Shown piece by piece: positions 30,623 to 45,979 of a DNA stretch of 64,000 nt; the stretch's first letter is position 1, and every line of letters begins with the position of its first letter. Under the pieces are notes generated by a model. It was not told where the DNA came from. It ran no database searches and saw only the letters and a program-made list of their open reading frames with translations. Origin of the DNA: Pseudomonas brassicacearum (GTDB lineage Bacteria; Pseudomonadota; Gammaproteobacteria; Pseudomonadales; Pseudomonadaceae); contig NZ_MOBK01000001.1 in NCBI RefSeq assembly GCF_003732265.1, positions 124,001 through 188,000 on the forward strand, given 5' to 3'. A program made the position numbers and the translations under genes.

Positions 30623-31680
30623 ATGGACGGCTTCGAGTCGGCGCTGATCGCTGCGCGCGCCCAGTTTGCGATCACCATCAGCTTTCATATTGTGTTGGCC
30701 GCGCTCACCATCGGGTTGGCCAACTTTCTGATGGTGCTGGAAGGTCTTTGGCTCTGGCACAGACGAAAGATCTATCTGGATGTTTACCTCTTCTGGCTGA
30801 AGGTATTTGCCCTCAACGTGGCCGTGGGAACGGCGTCGGGTCTGATTCTGGAGTACCAGTTCGGACTCAACTGGTCGCGACTGTCCACACAAGCGGGCGA
30901 TATCCTGGGCCCGTTAATGTTTTACGAAGTGCTCGCCGCTTTTTTTCTGGAGGCGGGCTTCCTCGGCATCATGCTGTTTGGCCTGAAGAAGGTCGGCCCT
31001 CGTCTGCATTTCTTCGCCACCTGTGCGGTAGCCATTGGCTCATTGATCAGTGCGTTTTGGATCCTGTCGGCCAATTCCTGGATGCGGATGATCGTCGTGC
31101 TCTCACCTCTGCAAATCGTAGTGGGTGATCTACACGGTCAGCACAACCTGAAGGTTCAACCCATGAAGGTTGCTGCTATTGAAGGCTCGTGGACGCGTCC
31201 ACCTGAACACGCGGGTGAACCGTTACGCTTGTTTGCCATTCCCGACATGGACGAACGGCGCAATCGTTGGGAAGTGGCGATTCCACGGATTGGCTCACTG
31301 TACCTGCGGCACGACCTGACAGGCACCATCCCCGCGCTGGACGAATTCCCGCCCGAAAACCTTCCGCCGGTACCGATTGTGTTTTTCGCGTTTCGTTTCA
31401 TGGTGGGTCTAGGGCTGTTGATGGTGGGGCAGGGGCTGACCAGTTTGGTGTTGCGAAGGCGGCAGCGGTTGAACACCTCACGTTGGATGCTGCGAGGGTG
31501 TACTGATGGCTCCGGCTGGATTTCTCGCGATGCTGTTTGGCTGGGTAGTGACAGAGGTAGGTCGCCAACCTTTCACCGTCTATGGCCTGCTGCGCACAGC
31601 GGACAGTCTGTCCTCGGTGTCGCGCCAGCAGGTGATCGGCTCAGCCTGGACGATCCTGATGTTTTACCTGCTGATATTCG
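30623..31680 (+). pseudogene. cioA: Decayed cyanide-insensitive oxidase subunit I (cioA remnant)
   Basis: Residues from MDGFESALIAARAQF track the intact CioA at 43586 closely, up to SANSWM. About 74 residues are then missing, including the segment RLVHMTLAA that holds the expected haem-ligand His. The match resumes at VVLSPLQIVVGDLHG and runs to RWMLRGC at about 31500. There a one-base loss shifts the frame; the end continues in another frame as MAPAGFLAMLFGWV...RTADSLSSVS. After YLLIFGV (about 31680) the rest of cioA is gone. Two deletions and a frameshift make it non-functional. Confidence 0.9.
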
Positions 31681-31989
31681 GTGTCGATGCCGGCCATGAC
31701 GTTGCTTGTTGCATTGCTGATTGGCTTCGCCTTGGGCTTTCGAAGCCGTCGTCATTTTCTGCCGCTGTTCTGTGCATTGGGCGTTTTCATATTGGCGTTT
31801 GCATTGATGATTGCGGCGCTCTTTCCAATGATTGTGCCGCCGAAATTGACCTTGCAGGCTGCTGCCTCAAGCCCCAACAACCAGATCTTCATGCTGGTGG
31901 GTTTTGCGGTGCTGATCCCGGTAACGCTCATCTATAACACCTACGGCTTCAGCGTCTTCAGCGGGAAGGTTCGATCTGATCGTGACTGA
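31681..31989 (+). pseudogene. cioB: Decayed cyanide-insensitive oxidase subunit II (cioB remnant)
   Basis: Only the last 100 or so residues remain: ALGFRSRRHFLPLFCALGVF, then MIAALFPMIVPPKLTLQAAA, then the ending NTYGFSVFSGKVRSDRD. This matches the end of intact CioB at 45979 (NTYGFKVFSGKVHPVRD). The first 230 or so residues were lost in the same deletion that removed the end of cioA. The frame differs from both cioA fragments, so the remnant is not a fusion product. Confidence 0.9.
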
Positions 31990-39883: not shown

Positions 39884-39992
39884 TGACCTGTACTCCACCG
39901 CTTTTATGACGTGCGCTACCTGGACACAGCGCACGGTTCTTATTGGGGCGAATGGTGGAGCAGGGCGATCAATATGATAAGTGCATTGTTGG

Positions 39993-40008
39993 CATGCATT
40001 AATGCATG
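39993..40008. promoter_or_regulatory. Perfect 16-bp palindrome upstream of MFS gene
   Basis: CATGCATTAATGCATG is its own reverse complement and lies 110 bases before the MFS start. The LysR promoter (about 36834-36870) has related words, GCGCATTAAT, GTGCATTCAT and GATCAAT. A LysR-type binding site is plausible. Confidence 0.5.
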
Positions 40009-40049
40009 AAACAGATCAATACAGATCTATCGAGTCGGGAGAGGTTCGA

Positions 40050-42317
40050 TTAAAGGTCGGGCTTCAGCAATGAATGCACTCGTGAAGTGAGTTCATTAAG
40101 ACTGAAGGGTTTGGTCAGTAATCGGGTTGTCCTGTCGACAGAGACAAGTCGCGAACCGCCAGCAAACCCGGTAATGAAAAGTACTTTAAGCGGCGGATAT
40201 TTTTTCTTGAGTTCCGCAGCCAGACTGATCCCGTTCATCAATCCTGGTAAACCTACATCGGTCAGCAGTAAATCAAGGTGTTCCAGCTTCTCCGCCTGTT
40301 TGATGGCAGAAACACTATCCACTGCCTCAATGACGCGATAGCCAATGTCTGACAAAAGCTCCGACGCCATTTGCCGGATAGCCGCTTCGTCGTCCACCAG
40401 CAAAATAGTTTCGTTCTGCCCCGACGGCACCATCTGTTGAGTGTCACCAAGATCTACTTTTGGGTCATCTGCCTGCGAATTATCTACCGGAAAATACAGC
40501 GTCACAGTGGTGCCGATACCCAGGCTGCTGTGGACTTTGACCTGACCACCGGATTGCTGAGTAAAGCCATATATCATTGACAGACCCAGCCCGGTACCTT
40601 CGCCCAACTTCTTGGTCGTGAAGAACGGGTCGAAGATGCGCGACAAGATGTCAGGACTGATCCCTGTACCGGTATCCGTGGCGCAAATGCTCACATATGC
40701 GCCAGGCGGCATCATTTTGTCGGATGAAGAGGCTTGATCGATAACGCATCGATCAACCTTGAGGTCGAGCCTGCCTCCATTGGGCATTGCATCCCGTGCA
40801 TTGATTGCAAGATTAAGCAGCGCGTTTTCCAGTTGGTTAAGGTCACACCTGATACGGTCGGTCGTTCTGAATGAGCACTCGACTATAATGCTCGGCCCCA
40901 CTGAACGCCGAATCATTTCTTCAAGATCTGCGATTACTTTTCGAGGATCAAGCAGTTCAGGCTCGAGTGATTGCTGCCTGGAGAACGCAAGTAGTCGTTG
41001 CGTTAATGCCGCCGCTCGAGATGCCGAGGTCAAGGCAACTGAATTGTATCGGGCCAGATCGTCGTAGCGACCCGCATCAATGCGTCGTTGCATCAGTTCC
41101 AGGCTACCGATGATCCCCGCCAACAGATTGTTGAAGTCGTGGGCGATTCCGCCGGTAAGCTGCCCGACCGCTTCCATTTTTTGGCTTTGCCGCAACTTGG
41201 ATTCCGTTACGGCGCGCTCTCGCTGTTCTTCTTCCAGTTGTTGGGTACGTTCGCCAATGCGTTCTTCAAGTAAGTCGTTCCAGTCACGCAACGCACTCTC
41301 CAGTTGCACCCGGTCTTCTATGTCCTCGATGGTGCCGTACCATTGTTCGGATTTTCCGGCGCTGTCGCGGCTGCACAGCGCACGGACTCTAAACCAACGG
41401 TAATCGCCCGTGTGTTTTCGAAATCGGACTTGCAGATCGAAAGGCTGCAGTGTGGCCAGAGATTGATCCCAAAGAGCCGCGATTGACACCTGATCCGCCT
41501 CATACGCGGCATTGGCCCACTGACGTTCCAATGTCTGCTCGAGCGACAGACCGGTGTATTCGTGCCAACGCGGATCGATAGAAATCAGGTTACCGCCCTT
41601 GTCGGCAGTCCAAGGCCACAGTGGATTGAGCTCAGCTGCAATGCGGTAATGCCTTTCGCTTTCACGCAGGCGTTTTTCTGTGGAGCGCATAGCGTCCAAG
41701 GTCTTGAAGCGCTTCAACGCCGCACCAAGCAGATTGCTATATCCGCGGAGGAAGTCGATATCGCTCTGCGTAAACTGACGAGGACTTCGGCTGTCCACCT
41801 CAAATATTCCGAAAGGACGTTCTCCTTTTGCGCCGTGGACTAGAACGTTGACGAAGGCTTTTACCCCATTGTTCTTTTGAAAATCGTGATACCGAAACCG
41901 TGACTCCGTAGAAATATCCGTCGAAATGACGGGCGCGTTGGTGTTGAGTGAGAAGATTTCGGGACTGCCTTCGCAGGCTTGCACCCGAACCTTCCCGACC
42001 ACATCGGGTGCCCAGCCCACACCATTTCTCACGAAGAACGTGATGCCGTCTTCTTCAAGCAGCATGAATTTGGCGAGGTTGGTTTCAAGCGCCTCACCGA
42101 CTAGTCGACAGGCCTCGTCGAGGATTTGTTCAAGGTCATCTGACGCCAAGGCGAGCTCACCAAACTTGGCGAGCACCTTACGCTGGCGCAGTAACGTATC
42201 CTCTATTTTCATAGGCTCACCCAAGGTGGTTTCAATATCCGAGGCTTGGGTTTCAGCTAGGTTCAATCGGCTTGCAGGCTGATCATCCGCCACTGACCTT
42301 CCAGTGTTTGACATCAT
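40050..42317 (-). CDS. Hybrid sensor histidine kinase (GAF-PAS-HisKA-HATPase-REC)
   Basis: 755 residues if ATG 42317 is used; ATG 42212 (MKIEDTLLRQRK) is another candidate with a weak GGTGAG site. Order: GAF domain (about 60-205), PAS (about 225-345, DPRWHEYTGLSLEQ), coiled coil, HisKA with VGQLTGGIAHDFNNLLAGI (His about 395), HATPase with NLAINARDAMPNG, DTGTGIS and GEGTGLGLSMIYG, and C-terminal REC with LLVDDEAAIRQM and phospho-acceptor Asp in LLLTDVGLPG. No membrane helix, so a cytosolic sensor. The 5' end overlaps the ClpP-like gene. Confidence 0.92.
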   Translation of the reverse strand: MMSNTGRSVADDQPASRLNLAETQASDIETTLGEPMKIEDTLLRQRKVLAKFGELALASDDLEQILDEACRLVGEALETNLAKFMLLEEDGITFFVRNGVGWAPDVVGKVRVQACEGSPEIFSLNTNAPVISTDISTESRFRYHDFQKNNGVKAFVNVLVHGAKGERPFGIFEVDSRSPRQFTQSDIDFLRGYSNLLGAALKRFKTLDAMRSTEKRLRESERHYRIAAELNPLWPWTADKGGNLISIDPRWHEYTGLSLEQTLERQWANAAYEADQVSIAALWDQSLATLQPFDLQVRFRKHTGDYRWFRVRALCSRDSAGKSEQWYGTIEDIEDRVQLESALRDWNDLLEERIGERTQQLEEEQRERAVTESKLRQSQKMEAVGQLTGGIAHDFNNLLAGIIGSLELMQRRIDAGRYDDLARYNSVALTSASRAAALTQRLLAFSRQQSLEPELLDPRKVIADLEEMIRRSVGPSIIVECSFRTTDRIRCDLNQLENALLNLAINARDAMPNGGRLDLKVDRCVIDQASSSDKMMPPGAYVSICATDTGTGISPDILSRIFDPFFTTKKLGEGTGLGLSMIYGFTQQSGGQVKVHSSLGIGTTVTLYFPVDNSQADDPKVDLGDTQQMVPSGQNETILLVDDEAAIRQMASELLSDIGYRVIEAVDSVSAIKQAEKLEHLDLLLTDVGLPGLMNGISLAAELKKKYPPLKVLFITGFAGGSRLVSVDRTTRLLTKPFSLNELTSRVHSLLKPDL

Positions 42318-42840
42318 CAGCGAACATCATTTGTTTCATCTCATGCGCAATCCCGTAAGCGAGGGACTCGTGGGCAGCGATGACTTTTTCCTCCGCTGAA
42401 AGGCAGTGAAAAATATCGAGCTTGGTCTCTGCATCAGCGGTTTCCAGCGTGAAAATCTGGACGTAACGCGCGAGGTCATTGTCGAGGCTCGATAGATATT
42501 CGCGCAGGCGTTGGTGATCGACGGATTTCTGGTTGAAATACCAATTCATCGGGTGGATCAGGAATCGAGAGTGGGGCGACGTTATTCGCCGGCTTGCTGC
42601 CAGAAACATGATGATGCCCATCGACTCGATGTTCCCGGCATTAATCGCACATAGCGGAACAGGCAGTGACTTCAGAAAGGTATAGAGCGTGAAGCCGAAA
42701 TTGGTGCTGCCGCCAGAAGTGGACAGGTTCAGCAGCAAGGACGTGGCGCCTTGATCAATGGCTTCAAGACAGCAATCTCTGAAACGCTCAGTCGTTGCCT
42801 GGTCGATCTGGCAGTGAAAGTGCACGATATGTTCGGTCAT
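42283..42840 (-). CDS. ClpP-like serine peptidase
   Basis: 185 residues. The fold motifs of ClpP are present: LLLNLSTSGGSTNFGFTLY (about 35-53), AINAGNIESMGIIMFLAAS with nucleophile Ser73, and HSRFLIHPMNWY with His96. Aligning on AYG (162) with ClpP's EYG puts Glu151 where E. coli ClpP has catalytic Asp171. Length is near ClpP (193-207) but the N-terminal loops that contact ClpX/A are lacking. No Clp ATPase is adjacent. The gene overlaps the hybrid kinase start by 35 bases, so translation may be coupled. Confidence 0.82.
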   Translation of the reverse strand: MTEHIVHFHCQIDQATTERFRDCCLEAIDQGATSLLLNLSTSGGSTNFGFTLYTFLKSLPVPLCAINAGNIESMGIIMFLAASRRITSPHSRFLIHPMNWYFNQKSVDHQRLREYLSSLDNDLARYVQIFTLETADAETKLDIFHCLSAEEKVIAAHESLAYGIAHEMKQMMFADDVKHWKVSGG

Positions 42841-43104
42841 GACTGACTTCCGAAATTTGTCATTTGTAAAGCTGCTTATGAGCTAGAAAGCTTAGTTCAT
42901 ATTGGCCATTTTTTAGCGAAAAAAACGACTTCTAAAGCCCACTTTGATCACCCGTTCCGCCAGTCGAAAGTCTCTATCTTTCAGGGAACTAACGTCGAAA
43001 ATCCATTGGTCGCCAAATTCGATTTTCGTCCAAACTTTCAATTTTCTGCGCCCTCCGAATTAGACGAGCAAATGCTCGTATTAACGAAGTAGAGGTGAAT
43101 AGAA

Positions 43105-43467
43105 ATGGCCAATACCGGAAACAACAATCCCGGCAATTTTTCTAATGACCGAGATAAGGCTTCTGAAGCAGGCAAGAAGGGTGGGCAAGCTTCAGGAGGT
43201 CAACAATCACGCGATGCCGATCGTATGTCCGGAGGAGGGCAAGGCACCAATCGCGGAGGCGAATTCGCTGACGATAAGGAAAGCATGGACAAGCCTGGGC
43301 AAAAAGGCGGCCAGGCATCGGGCGGGCAGCAATCAAACAAGGATGATCAGTCCACCGGCGGGGGCCAGAGCGGTCGCGGCGGCAACTTTGCCGATGACCG
43401 GGACAAAGCCTCTGAAGCGGGCCGTAAAGAAGGTGAAAACAGCGGTGGCGGAGGGCGTCAATCCTGA
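43105..43467 (+). CDS. KGG-repeat stress protein (YciG/ConB-10-like)
   Basis: 120 residues from ATG 43105, AGAGGTGA upstream. Three or four glycine-rich repeats of the type DRDKASEAGKKGGQASGG, separated by QQS and GGGQ stretches; the last copy reads AGRKEGENSGGG. These KGG repeats are known from YciG-like and stress-induced acidophilic proteins. The chain is hydrophilic and likely unfolded. It is followed by a strong hairpin and then cioAB. Confidence 0.88.
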   Translation: MANTGNNNPGNFSNDRDKASEAGKKGGQASGGQQSRDADRMSGGGQGTNRGGEFADDKESMDKPGQKGGQASGGQQSNKDDQSTGGGQSGRGGNFADDRDKASEAGRKEGENSGGGGRQS

Positions 43468-43481
43468 AGCCGGGTGATTAT

Positions 43482-43506
43482 CAAGCCCCGAATTTTTCGG
43501 GGCTTG
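43482..43506 (+). terminator. Hairpin after KGG gene
   Basis: caagccccgaa pairs with ttcggggcttg, an 11-bp perfect stem around three T. It lies 14 bases after the stop. No long T-run follows, so termination may be partial. Confidence 0.7.
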
Positions 43507-43585
43507 ATTGAAAAAATTCGCGCGCCATGAACATTTTGGTGTTTGAAAGGTTCTACCGTGACACTGCTCAACACGAGTGACCTTT

Positions 43586-44962
43586 ATGGACGCTGTCGAG
43601 TCGGGCCTTTTGGCTGCGCGAGCTCAGTTCGCAATCACCATCAGCTTTCATATCGTGCTGGCAGCATTCACCATCGGCCTGGCCAATTTTCTCATGGTGC
43701 TGGAAGGCCTGTGGCTGTTGCGTGGTAGGAAGATCTACCTGGATGTCTATCGTTACTGGTTAAAAATATTTGCCCTTACCGTAGCGGTGGGCACGGCCTC
43801 GGGGCTGATTCTGGAATACCAGTTCGGACTCAATTGGTCGCGTCTTTCAACCCAGGCCGCAGACATCCTTGGCCCATTGATGTTCTACGAAGTGCTGGCC
43901 GCTTTTTTTCTGGAGGCCGGCTTCCTGGGAGTCATGCTGTTCGGGTTGAAGAAGGTCGGGCCGCGCGTGCATTTCTTCGCTACCTGCGCAGTCGCATCCG
44001 GGTCATTGATAAGCGCATTCTGGATCCTGTCGGCCAATTCCTGGATGCAGACACCGGCGGGTTTCTCAATTGGCATTGATGGCCGTTTCATCGCCCAGGA
44101 TTGGTGGGCGATCATCTTCAATCCATCTTTTCCGTATCGACTGGTGCACATGACCTTGGCAGCCATGCTCGGCACAGCCACTCTGGTAGCCGGAGCCAGT
44201 GCATGGCAGGTGTTGAAGCAACCAGAAAACCCGCGAGCTCGCCTTCAATACTCCATGGCGCTATGGACAATCCTCGTGCTCGCCCCCACACAAATCGTCG
44301 TCGGACACTTCCACGCAGAACACAGCCTCGTCGTACAGCCGCAGAAGGTGGCGGCCATCGAAGGCTCCTGGACACGTCCACCTGAAGGGGCGGGCGAACC
44401 TATGCGTCTGTTTGCCGTGCCGGACATGGAGGAGGGGCGCAACCATTGGGAATTGGCGATTCCCCGAATAGGCTCGCTATATCTGCGTTACAACCTGACG
44501 GGTTCCATCGCCGCGCTGGATGAATTTGCGCCCCATGACATCCCGCCCGTGCCGATTGTGTTTTTCGCTTTTCGTTTCATGGTCGGGCTGGGTCTGTTGA
44601 TGCTGGGGCAGGGCTTGATCAGTTGGGTGCTGCGTCGCCGGCATCGGCTGTTCAGGGCTCGCTGGATGATGCGAGGTTGCGTGCTGCTGGCTCCCGCCGG
44701 ATTCTTGGCCATGCTCAGTGGCTGGGTGGTGACGGAGGTCGGCCGCCAACCGTTCACGGTCTACGGTCTGCTGCGCACGGCTGACAGTTTGTCGTCGGTT
44801 TCGCATCGACAGGTGATTGCATCGACGTGGTCGATCCTCGGGTTTTATCTATTGATCTTCGGCATCGGACTTTGGGTGCTTTTGCGAATCCTGCGCAAAC
44901 CTGCGCAGAAGGATGAACCCGGGCCGCAACCCACGCTGGCGGATGAGACCGGCGATGCCTGA
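43586..44962 (+). CDS. cioA: Cyanide-insensitive terminal oxidase subunit I
   Basis: 458 residues from ATG 43586 (a GTG three codons earlier is possible). It has the CydA/CioA pattern: FHIVLAAFTIGLANF with the haem His near residue 17, GTASGLILEYQFGLNWS, EAGFLGVMLFG, YRLVHMTLAAMLG with the second His, PTQIVVGHFHAEHS, and VTEVGRQPFTVYGLLRTADS. The Q-loop is short, typical of CIO rather than E. coli CydA. It is the quinol-oxidising bd-type subunit in the inner membrane, tolerant of cyanide. The operon partner starts 15 bases later. A broken paralogue is at 30623. Confidence 0.95.
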   Translation: MDAVESGLLAARAQFAITISFHIVLAAFTIGLANFLMVLEGLWLLRGRKIYLDVYRYWLKIFALTVAVGTASGLILEYQFGLNWSRLSTQAADILGPLMFYEVLAAFFLEAGFLGVMLFGLKKVGPRVHFFATCAVASGSLISAFWILSANSWMQTPAGFSIGIDGRFIAQDWWAIIFNPSFPYRLVHMTLAAMLGTATLVAGASAWQVLKQPENPRARLQYSMALWTILVLAPTQIVVGHFHAEHSLVVQPQKVAAIEGSWTRPPEGAGEPMRLFAVPDMEEGRNHWELAIPRIGSLYLRYNLTGSIAALDEFAPHDIPPVPIVFFAFRFMVGLGLLMLGQGLISWVLRRRHRLFRARWMMRGCVLLAPAGFLAMLSGWVVTEVGRQPFTVYGLLRTADSLSSVSHRQVIASTWSILGFYLLIFGIGLWVLLRILRKPAQKDEPGPQPTLADETGDA

Positions 44963-44977
44963 GGGGAGGGCGAACCC

Positions 44978-45979
44978 ATGTTGGGCAATGACTGGATAAC
45001 ACTGCTATCAGCCGCAGCCTTGGCGTTTTCGGTGTTGAACTATGTCCTGCTCGACGGCACCGATCTTGGGGTGGGCGTTCTTTTAGGGCTTACCCGTTGT
45101 AGCAAGCAACGGCGGGCCATGGCAGTGACCATCTTGCCGATCTGGGACGCCAACGAGACCTGGCTGGTGCTGGGAGGCGGTGGCTTGCTGGCGCTCTTTC
45201 CAATGGCCTACGCCATCTTGCTTCCGGCGCTATATCTACCATTCATTGTGATGTTTCTGGCTTTGATTCTTCGTGCGGTCGCGTTGGAATTTCGCGACTA
45301 TGCGCCTGATCAAACCATCAAGCGTTGTATTGACGGCTTGCTCATGTGTGGTTCGTTGCTCGTCGGCGGATCACAGGGAATAGTCCTTGGCACGTTGGTT
45401 CAGGGCCTGCCGAATAACGGCGTGCAATACACCGGGAATGGGCTTGAATGGCTGAATATGTTTCCACTGTTTTGTGGCGCAGTGCTGGTGGTGGGCTACA
45501 CATGGCTGGGCGCGTGCTGGCTCTATTGGCGCACCGAAGAGGAACTACAGCAGCGATCAAAGCGCCTGGCAAAAAGGCTGGCCGTGGTGACCATCGTTTT
45601 GCTGGTGGTTTTGGTTGCCTGGACGGCGAAGCTGGATGTTCGGTACGCGCGACGGCTTTGCGACACGCTGATCTGGCTGCCGGGCGCCGCGTTGTTTATT
45701 AGCCTCTCAGTGGGCTTCATCATGGGCTGGCGGAGCCGTCAGGAGTATCTGCCATTGTTTGCGGCGCTGGGTATCTTTGTCCTGGCCTTTGCGATGATGA
45801 TCGCAGCGCTGTATCCAATGATTATCCCGCCGAACCTGACCCTGCAAGCAGCTGCCTCCAGCCGCGTCAGTCAGATGTTCATGCTGGTTGGCTTCGCCGT
45901 ATTGATACCGGTGACGCTCATCTACAACACCTATGGCTTCAAAGTTTTCAGTGGCAAGGTTCATCCGGTTCGGGATTGA
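44978..45979 (+). CDS. cioB: Cyanide-insensitive terminal oxidase subunit II
   Basis: 333 residues from ATG 44978 (GAGGG upstream). About eight to nine helices. The N-terminus has VLNYVLLDGTDLGVGVLLGL and PIWDANETWLVLGGGGLLALFP, hallmarks of CydB/CioB; the end is LIPVTLIYNTYGFKVFSGK. It pairs with CioA to form the bd-type quinol oxidase. No small CydX-like gene is evident downstream. Confidence 0.95.
   Translation: MLGNDWITLLSAAALAFSVLNYVLLDGTDLGVGVLLGLTRCSKQRRAMAVTILPIWDANETWLVLGGGGLLALFPMAYAILLPALYLPFIVMFLALILRAVALEFRDYAPDQTIKRCIDGLLMCGSLLVGGSQGIVLGTLVQGLPNNGVQYTGNGLEWLNMFPLFCGAVLVVGYTWLGACWLYWRTEEELQQRSKRLAKRLAVVTIVLLVVLVAWTAKLDVRYARRLCDTLIWLPGAALFISLSVGFIMGWRSRQEYLPLFAALGIFVLAFAMMIAALYPMIIPPNLTLQAAASSRVSQMFMLVGFAVLIPVTLIYNTYGFKVFSGKVHPVRD

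Follow-up and report, generated by a model that had tools for sequence, protein, structure and literature searches.

Relationship to described ClpP proteins

The closest described relative of the protein considered here is ClpP1 of Pseudomonas plecoglossicida (PpClpP1; PDB 9UXT). According to the paper on this protein (PMC12900304), PpClpP1 is a homotetradecamer with a 42.7 Å pore and a Ser73–His96–Pro151 site, whose activity is 13-fold below that of canonical ClpP, requires the Ser and the His, and is kept at ~60% when the Pro is changed to Ala or Asp. The paper also reports no ClpX binding, and mixing with canonical ClpP gives an active heterotetradecamer and raises activity. We have analysed a stretch of 64,000 nucleotides from Pseudomonas brassicacearum (contig NZ_MOBK01000001.1, positions 124,001–188,000; referred to below as the window), part of a genome of 6.47 Mb in 485 contigs, in which a gene for a ClpP-like protein is followed by one for a soluble hybrid histidine kinase. 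A sequence-only reading had proposed that the two are directly coupled as a unit of regulated proteolysis or signalling not yet described. We conclude with high confidence that the peptidase belongs to the PpClpP1 family and that the kinase is separate from it; the peptidase represents a new subfamily of this family, which was described in 2026.

The protein matches the CLP_protease model (PF00574) with 44.5 bits against a cut-off of 20.2 (E 2e-11) and therefore carries this domain; the equivalog model for canonical ClpP, TIGR00493, gives 20 bits against a cut-off of 308.6. The canonical ClpP (family S14) of the same genome (locus L001) has the same fold and the same Ser and His positions, but identity is ~20% and there are several differences. 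Ser73, His96 and Glu151 lie where the sequence-only reading had placed them. In the canonical copy the residue aligned with Glu151 is Asp188, so that the Ser–His–Asp triad is not present here. The N-terminal axial loops are likewise missing as that reading stated: 40 N-terminal residues of the canonical open reading frame (ORF) have no counterpart. Among nine ATPase-docking positions, placed by the E. coli groove numbering, several are strongly changed (Tyr to Asn at E. coli position 62, Phe to Ser at 82 and Leu to Ser at 114) and others conservatively. The protein is an atypical ClpP that lacks both the triad Asp and the axial loops.

The best sequence match in the PDB is 9UXT (E 1e-38), followed at a large distance by the next (1.4e-4). 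An AlphaFold monomer model built from 50 family sequences (pLDDT 93.1) superposes on 9UXT with a TM score of 0.96–0.97 and an rmsd of 0.9 Å, compared with TM scores of 0.69–0.80 for other ClpPs among the 50 matches listed. The two proteins share the short N-terminus, starting at the same place as 9UXT, Ser73 and His96, the lack of a triad Asp and a location outside the clpX operon. They differ in that identity is 40% and the third position holds Glu151 here and Pro there (residue 150 by count of the 9UXT chain). The peptidase can thus hardly be called undescribed, since this 40%-identical relative has both a structure and enzymology (PDB 9UXT, PMC12900304).

More distant ClpP-fold proteins were also considered. 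Profiles of phage head maturation proteases match (phrog_94, 6.6e-10; NF045542, 9.6e-8), but membership is rejected by the NF045542 score of 32.2 bits against 120. The whole genome holds three PF00574 genes: the canonical clpP, the clpP-like gene of the window and one near a phage portal-like ORF (L002), which is likely the true head maturation protease. We recognise the ORFs adjoining the canonical gene as presumable trigger factor and ClpX, and take the ORF beside the L002 gene to be the phage portal. ClpP2 of Pseudomonas aeruginosa (PDB 7M1L) is another non-housekeeping ClpP that a Pseudomonas has besides the canonical one; orthology with it is ruled out by the weak sequence match (E 0.0095). 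The 2026 paper describes the N-terminus of this ClpP2 as similar to that of PpClpP1 (PMC12900304).

Subfamilies and conserved residues

ClpP-like matches at E 1e-10 or better occur in 188 of 398 Pseudomonas genomes, and all named relatives among the 80 listed are from Pseudomonas. Subfamily A, to which the window protein belongs, comprises 91 loci in 90 genomes, all of them examined, with 64–100% identity between members; one genome (G135) has two copies, on different contigs (L127 and L137). The other 98 genomes match mostly at E 1e-34 to 1e-44, two of them (G006 and G176) much more weakly, and the 30 loci examined among them constitute subfamily B. Identity between A and B is 33–45%. The third residue is fixed within each subfamily: Glu in 91/91 of A, and Pro, the 9UXT type, in 30/30 of B. 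Because A thereby departs from the Ser–His–Pro site of the PpClpP1 type, we file it, on its sequence, as a sister subfamily of PpClpP1. No recognisable paper on the Glu type was found among the literature matches listed.

An alignment of 173 sequences (A, 91; B, 30; phage type, 52; see below) shows Ser73, His96, Trp100, His109 and Asp122 to be invariant. The position of the old triad Asp is occupied by Glu (91), Pro (30), Ser (33), Ala (16) or Thr (3) and in no case by Asp. Asp122 may be a replacement acid. It is the counterpart of Asp121 in the 9UXT protein, which the authors of that structure dock into the bortezomib pocket; the accessible passages of their paper yielded no activity for an Asp121 mutant (PMC12900304). 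The protein is conserved across species: the ratio of nonsynonymous to synonymous substitution rates (dN/dS) is 0.006–0.035 in those nine of ten pairs for which dS is defined, most dS values being saturated.

These residues also bear on the possibility that the protein has little or no peptidase activity and serves to poison or cap housekeeping ClpP rings under stress. The lack of an Asp at the triad position, the altered docking positions and the wide pore of PpClpP1 would all suit such a role. Invariance of Ser and His throughout the family does not, nor does the dependence of PpClpP1 activity on these two residues and its increase on mixing, as reported in PMC12900304, and we consider poisoning or capping improbable.

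The hybrid kinase as a separate unit

The kinase carries GAF, PAS_3, HisKA, HATPase_c and Response_reg domains and is thereby a hybrid histidine kinase. It shares the kinase core and receiver with the PRK13557/CckA-like hybrid histidine kinases (NF010076, 2.7e-109), but scores below their curated cut-off (366 versus 631 bits) and has GAF plus PAS input. The listed ORF of 755 residues, 40050–42317 (−), overlaps the clpP-like ORF by 35 bases. This overlap, reported by the sequence-only reading, is present between the ORFs as listed; as an overlap of genes it presupposes that translation of the kinase begins at the first ATG, and is very probably a start-codon artefact, because conservation among the orthologues begins at Met36 and stop codons lie upstream of it in several. 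In most orthologues the conserved sequence starts at M-x-I-E-(D/E)-TLLRQRKVLA, equivalent to Met36 (window position 42212), and the translated upstream regions contain in-frame stops in L135, L142, L143, L168, L169 and L170. L142 and L143 come from the two further species that have the kinase directly after clpP. In the closest relative of the kinase, L166, the frame is open across the upstream stretch shown, and the conserved part there is a DNA motif. A longer form of the kinase in the window strain is therefore formally possible.

Counted from Met36, the gap between the genes is 70 bp in the window, 95 bp in L142 and 103 bp in L143. On the conserved start and this spacing we reject translational coupling through the overlap. 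The gap contains the sequence GAACCT-N16-TCGGATA, and the core GAACCT-N-TCGGA is found ~25–55 bp before the kinase start in 16/16 orthologues with 71% identity or more, among them the fragmentary L180, and regardless of which gene precedes it. It was not seen in three kinase relatives of 54–56% identity. The core occurs 16 times in the 1.70 Mb of scanned loci; 15 occurrences are at most 350 bp upstream of a called start of a kinase or kinase fragment, and the sixteenth is the one in the window itself. The longer form, GAACCT-N14..17-TCGGATA, has one match in the entire genome of the strain. The conserved motif GAACCT-N15/16-CTCGGATA (42238–42264 (−) in the window) is thus specific to the hybrid kinase among the scanned loci. 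We take it to resemble an ECF-type −35/−10 pair. As a shared regulon signal for the kinase, clpP and the divergent gene for a KGG-repeat stress protein that neighbours clpP, the motif is ruled out, because in the scanned loci it stands only before the kinase.

BLASTN comparisons divide the region into two modules, one with KGG and clpP (−668 to ~+560 relative to the clpP start) and one with the kinase and its motif (+567 to +2778). They are joined as KGG–clpP–kinase in the window, L142 and L143 and in a second order, kinase–KGG–clpP, in L135 and L209; L166 and L167 have the kinase module without the KGG–clpP module. One order is a circular permutation of the other, the outer flanks differ, and inspection of the module ends by eye revealed no terminal repeats.

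The kinase is therefore probably a separate transcription unit that lies beside clpP in a minority of species, judging from its start and upstream sequence. The view that the two genes are the only members of one unit is doubtful, as each seems to carry its own upstream element. A translationally coupled peptidase–kinase operon would account for the shared strand, the closeness and the same order in three species, but given the conserved start, which removes the overlap, the conserved motif of the kinase and the rarity of the pairing (3/91, below), we regard it as highly improbable.

Association of the kinase with clpP

Full 6-kb flanks on both sides were available for 78 of the 91 subfamily A loci and 29 of the 30 subfamily B loci. 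The kinase follows clpP at three of the 91 A loci (the window, L142 and L143), and at one more (L135) it is found beyond the KGG gene; no orthologue is found within the flanks of the other 87, or near any of the 30 B loci. Weaker kinase paralogues of 37–40% identity lie within ~6 kb of clpP at A loci L043, L053 and L155 and B loci L108 and L111. An overlapping collection of 80 named loci gives three with the kinase at most 4 kb from clpP, of which L202 and L193 are genomes already counted and L209 is Pseudomonas sp. KK4. Pairing thus extends beyond the window strain, in the same order in three species, but is not conserved, and the proposal of a peptidase directly coupled to a kinase finds no support, as a conserved or as a coupled unit, in view of this rarity and of the kinase's own start and motif. 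The literature matches listed included no recognisable paper on a clpP–kinase pairing.

The kinase itself is present in 19 of the 398 genomes, 12 of which also have a subfamily A clpP. Two candidates per genome were scored, so this count is possibly low, with no effect on the adjacency counts; a second genome search for the kinase added no genomes. In a kinase tree, which leaves out Pseudomonas sp. KK4 (L209), the three cases downstream of clpP do not form a clade, and G228 and G372, where the kinase lies elsewhere, are nested among them. The closeness of kinase and clpP is beyond chance, yet there is no conserved operon. A loose functional link between the two is possible, and shared residence in accessory stress islands explains the co-location equally well as shared function.

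An accessory ClpP subunit in a stress-gene neighbourhood

A frequent neighbour of clpP is the KGG gene. At 61 of 91 A loci clpP has a KGG pattern no more than 1.5 kb away, compared with 24/180 and 12/380 control windows, and 59 of the 80 named loci of the overlapping collection also have one near clpP; this survey used a sequence pattern of our own and not the Pfam model. In the genome of the strain the pattern has three matches, in two genes. Other neighbours clustered around the clpP loci include presumable stress-type genes, with PfpI-like, hemerythrin-like, cardiolipin synthase-like, topoisomerase IB-like and pyruvate oxidase-like products, as we recognise them from representative sequences. 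An RpoS-type −10 element, CTANRCT, is found within 120 bp upstream of clpP in 17/54 non-redundant A regions, compared with 63/1520 other genes.

If the properties of PpClpP1 carry over, the ClpP-like protein would assemble into a tetradecamer with a wide pore, which would be a weak peptidase and unable by itself to take substrates from ClpX. Its gene would be induced by stress, and the subunit would then mix with housekeeping ClpP and tune that protease. We favour this complete mechanism, a stress-induced accessory ClpP subunit of the PpClpP1 type in a sister subfamily, with the kinase separate, and consider it reasonably probable.

Several observations weigh against it. The KGG pattern is found within 1.5 kb of clpP at 2 of the 30 subfamily B loci. 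The RpoS-like site occurs in a minority of A regions and in none of 25 B regions; a GAACTT-type pair is present instead in 5/25 B regions (0/54 in A; 23/1520 other genes), and the upstream-region counts come from related, hence non-independent, sequences. Formation of a heteromer with canonical ClpP would be an extension from a protein of 40% identity. Finally, both genes lie within ~3 kb in four of the 12 genomes that have both, for which random placement gives ~2e-9 (binomial), and a kinase that is purely a bystander would not account for this co-location; in the single-contig genomes G049, G160 and G268 the two genes are ~64–70 kb apart.

The last points raise the alternative that KGG, clpP and kinase are a small functional stress cassette in which the kinase senses stress and controls the output of clpP or KGG, with no operon needed. 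The occurrence of the same three modules in two orders and with different flanks speaks for such a cassette, as do the binomial value just given and the enrichment of subfamily A clpP among kinase genomes (12/19 versus 90/398; Fisher 1e-4, kinship ignored). Against it, the kinase is apart from clpP in the other eight of the 12 genomes, subfamily A clpP is missing from seven of the 19 genomes with the kinase, 87 clpP loci have no orthologue in their flanks, the closest kinase relatives in G228 and G372 are not beside clpP, and shared accessory stress islands would yield the same pattern. On balance we think the cassette rather unlikely and retain the accessory subunit with a separate kinase.

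Relatives in temperate phages

Relatives of the protein are also encoded by phages. A search of phage-record proteins found six Escherichia phages (41% identity), a plasmid search one Enterobacter record bearing phage-type genes (36.5%), and IMG/VR 51 loci through a phage-type query and two through the family alignment. The 56 phage, phage-like and prophage loci taken (L265–L320) are redundant, 29 being at least 95% identical to the query. The model of the phage protein (pLDDT 90.5) is again closest to 9UXT, with a TM score of 0.88–0.90. BFVD gave no match above 23% identity among the 50 listed, and thus no close phage relatives.

At 54 of the 56 loci more of the coding sequence lies on the strand opposite the ClpP-like gene, and both large flanking ORFs are opposite in 48. 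At 27 loci (26 by tblastn, L278 by ORF) an Arc-type gene immediately precedes the ClpP-like gene at a distance of a few bases, most of these pairs having a one-base overlap; RefSeq labels the E. coli partner 'Arc family DNA-binding protein'. The Arc and ClpP-like pair is present over at least 80% in 17 of 5426 E. coli genomes, and any part of it in 175. Neighbours of the phage copies, assigned by profile in three loci and by annotation in three, include tail genes in L265 (annotation), L304 and L319 and, in L298 as well, a tape-measure gene. The L266 record is classed as Lederbergvirus, and an Arc gene lies near its ClpP-like gene. In several types of temperate phage, the ClpP-like genes thus appear as accessory genes oriented against their surroundings. 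Among the literature matches listed there was no recognisable paper on a phage Arc and ClpP-like pair, and the phage connection of the PpClpP1-type family is new here.

In a family tree rooted on the canonical ClpP of the strain, a single distant outgroup, one clade (0.937) comprises 50 phage sequences and stands next to the Pseudomonas clade (0.878). The sister group of subfamily A (0.996) consists of L319 and L320, a pair of almost identical viral contigs. Their placement implies that the gene has passed between phage and chromosome one or more times, in either direction. We reject an ancestral grade of phage sequences, since without L319 and L320 the other 50 are a clade.

These relationships invite the view that the Pseudomonas protein derives from a domesticated accessory gene of a temperate phage, whose original role was to benefit the prophage by acting on a repressor or on the Clp system of the host. 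Such an origin would be in keeping with the counter-oriented phage loci, nearly half of them behind an Arc-type gene, and with the phage-borne sister group of subfamily A. The other phage sequences, however, make up their own clade, the tree with its one distant outgroup does not decide which side is older, and no phage genes were identified among the partly annotated neighbours of the Pseudomonas copies, so that domestication appears quite unlikely. A broader view encompasses both settings: a distinct family of short ClpP-like ring proteins without the triad Asp, perhaps using Asp122, would enter host ClpP rings and retune ClpXP, serving lysogeny or exclusion in phages, some with an Arc-type regulator, and stress survival in Pseudomonas. 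We offer this as a tentative possibility.

Genomic context in the window

The features of the locus are collected in Table 1. A terminator-like hairpin lies behind the KGG gene, and a sigma-70 scan of positions 39900–43600 found no site. In line with the sequence-only reading, which saw no chaperone gene nearby, a Pfam scan of 20 neighbour genes, a set of the larger genes in the interval from 27.4 to 53 kb, shows no Clp ATPase. With the PADLOC models of anti-phage defence, the ClpP-like protein of the window matches no family at E 0.01, and neither do P0001 and P0002.

Table 1. Features of the clpP-like locus and its surroundings (window coordinates)
Feature	Coordinates	Strand	Remarks
Soluble hybrid histidine kinase GAF-PAS-HisKA-HATPase-REC, 720 aa	40050..42212	(−)	Counted from Met36 of the listed 755-aa ORF, the probable start
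N-terminal extension of the kinase ORF, probably untranslated, origin of the apparent 35-base overlap	42213..42317	(−)	In-frame stops in orthologues
Promoter-like motif of the kinase, GAACCT-N16-TCGGA, inside the 70-bp gap	42238..42264	(−)	16/16 close kinase orthologues
ClpP-like peptidase, 185 aa	42283..42840	(−)	Ser73, His96, Glu151; N-terminal axial loops absent
RpoS-type extended −10-like CTAAGCT, 55 bp upstream of clpP	42889..42895	(−)	Consensus CTANRCT; 17/54 non-redundant subfamily A regions
KGG-repeat stress protein gene, divergent neighbour of clpP	43105..43467	(+)	PF10685, 5.6e-12

Between positions ~28000 and 50000, G+C per kb is 0.50–0.60 (0.62 in one kb), compared with 0.57–0.65 in the first 27 kb. 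This stretch contains pyruvate-oxidase-like, cytochrome bd, KGG, clpP-like and kinase genes and looks like an accessory stress island. Cytochrome bd subunit I genes are found twice in the window, at 30623–31699 (+) (the short one, 358 aa) and 43577–45979 (+), with subunit II behind the second.

Implications

The kinase illustrates that a first-ATG call can produce a false operon overlap. For the peptidases, Glu, Pro, Ser, Ala and Thr at one position of an otherwise shared site provide a clean natural series for the role of the third residue; if borne out, this would be a serine peptidase family that tolerates any of five residues in place of the textbook Asp. Were the broader view of the family correct, an accessory subunit unable to dock ATPases would represent a general route for retuning ClpXP, available to bacteria and prophages alike.

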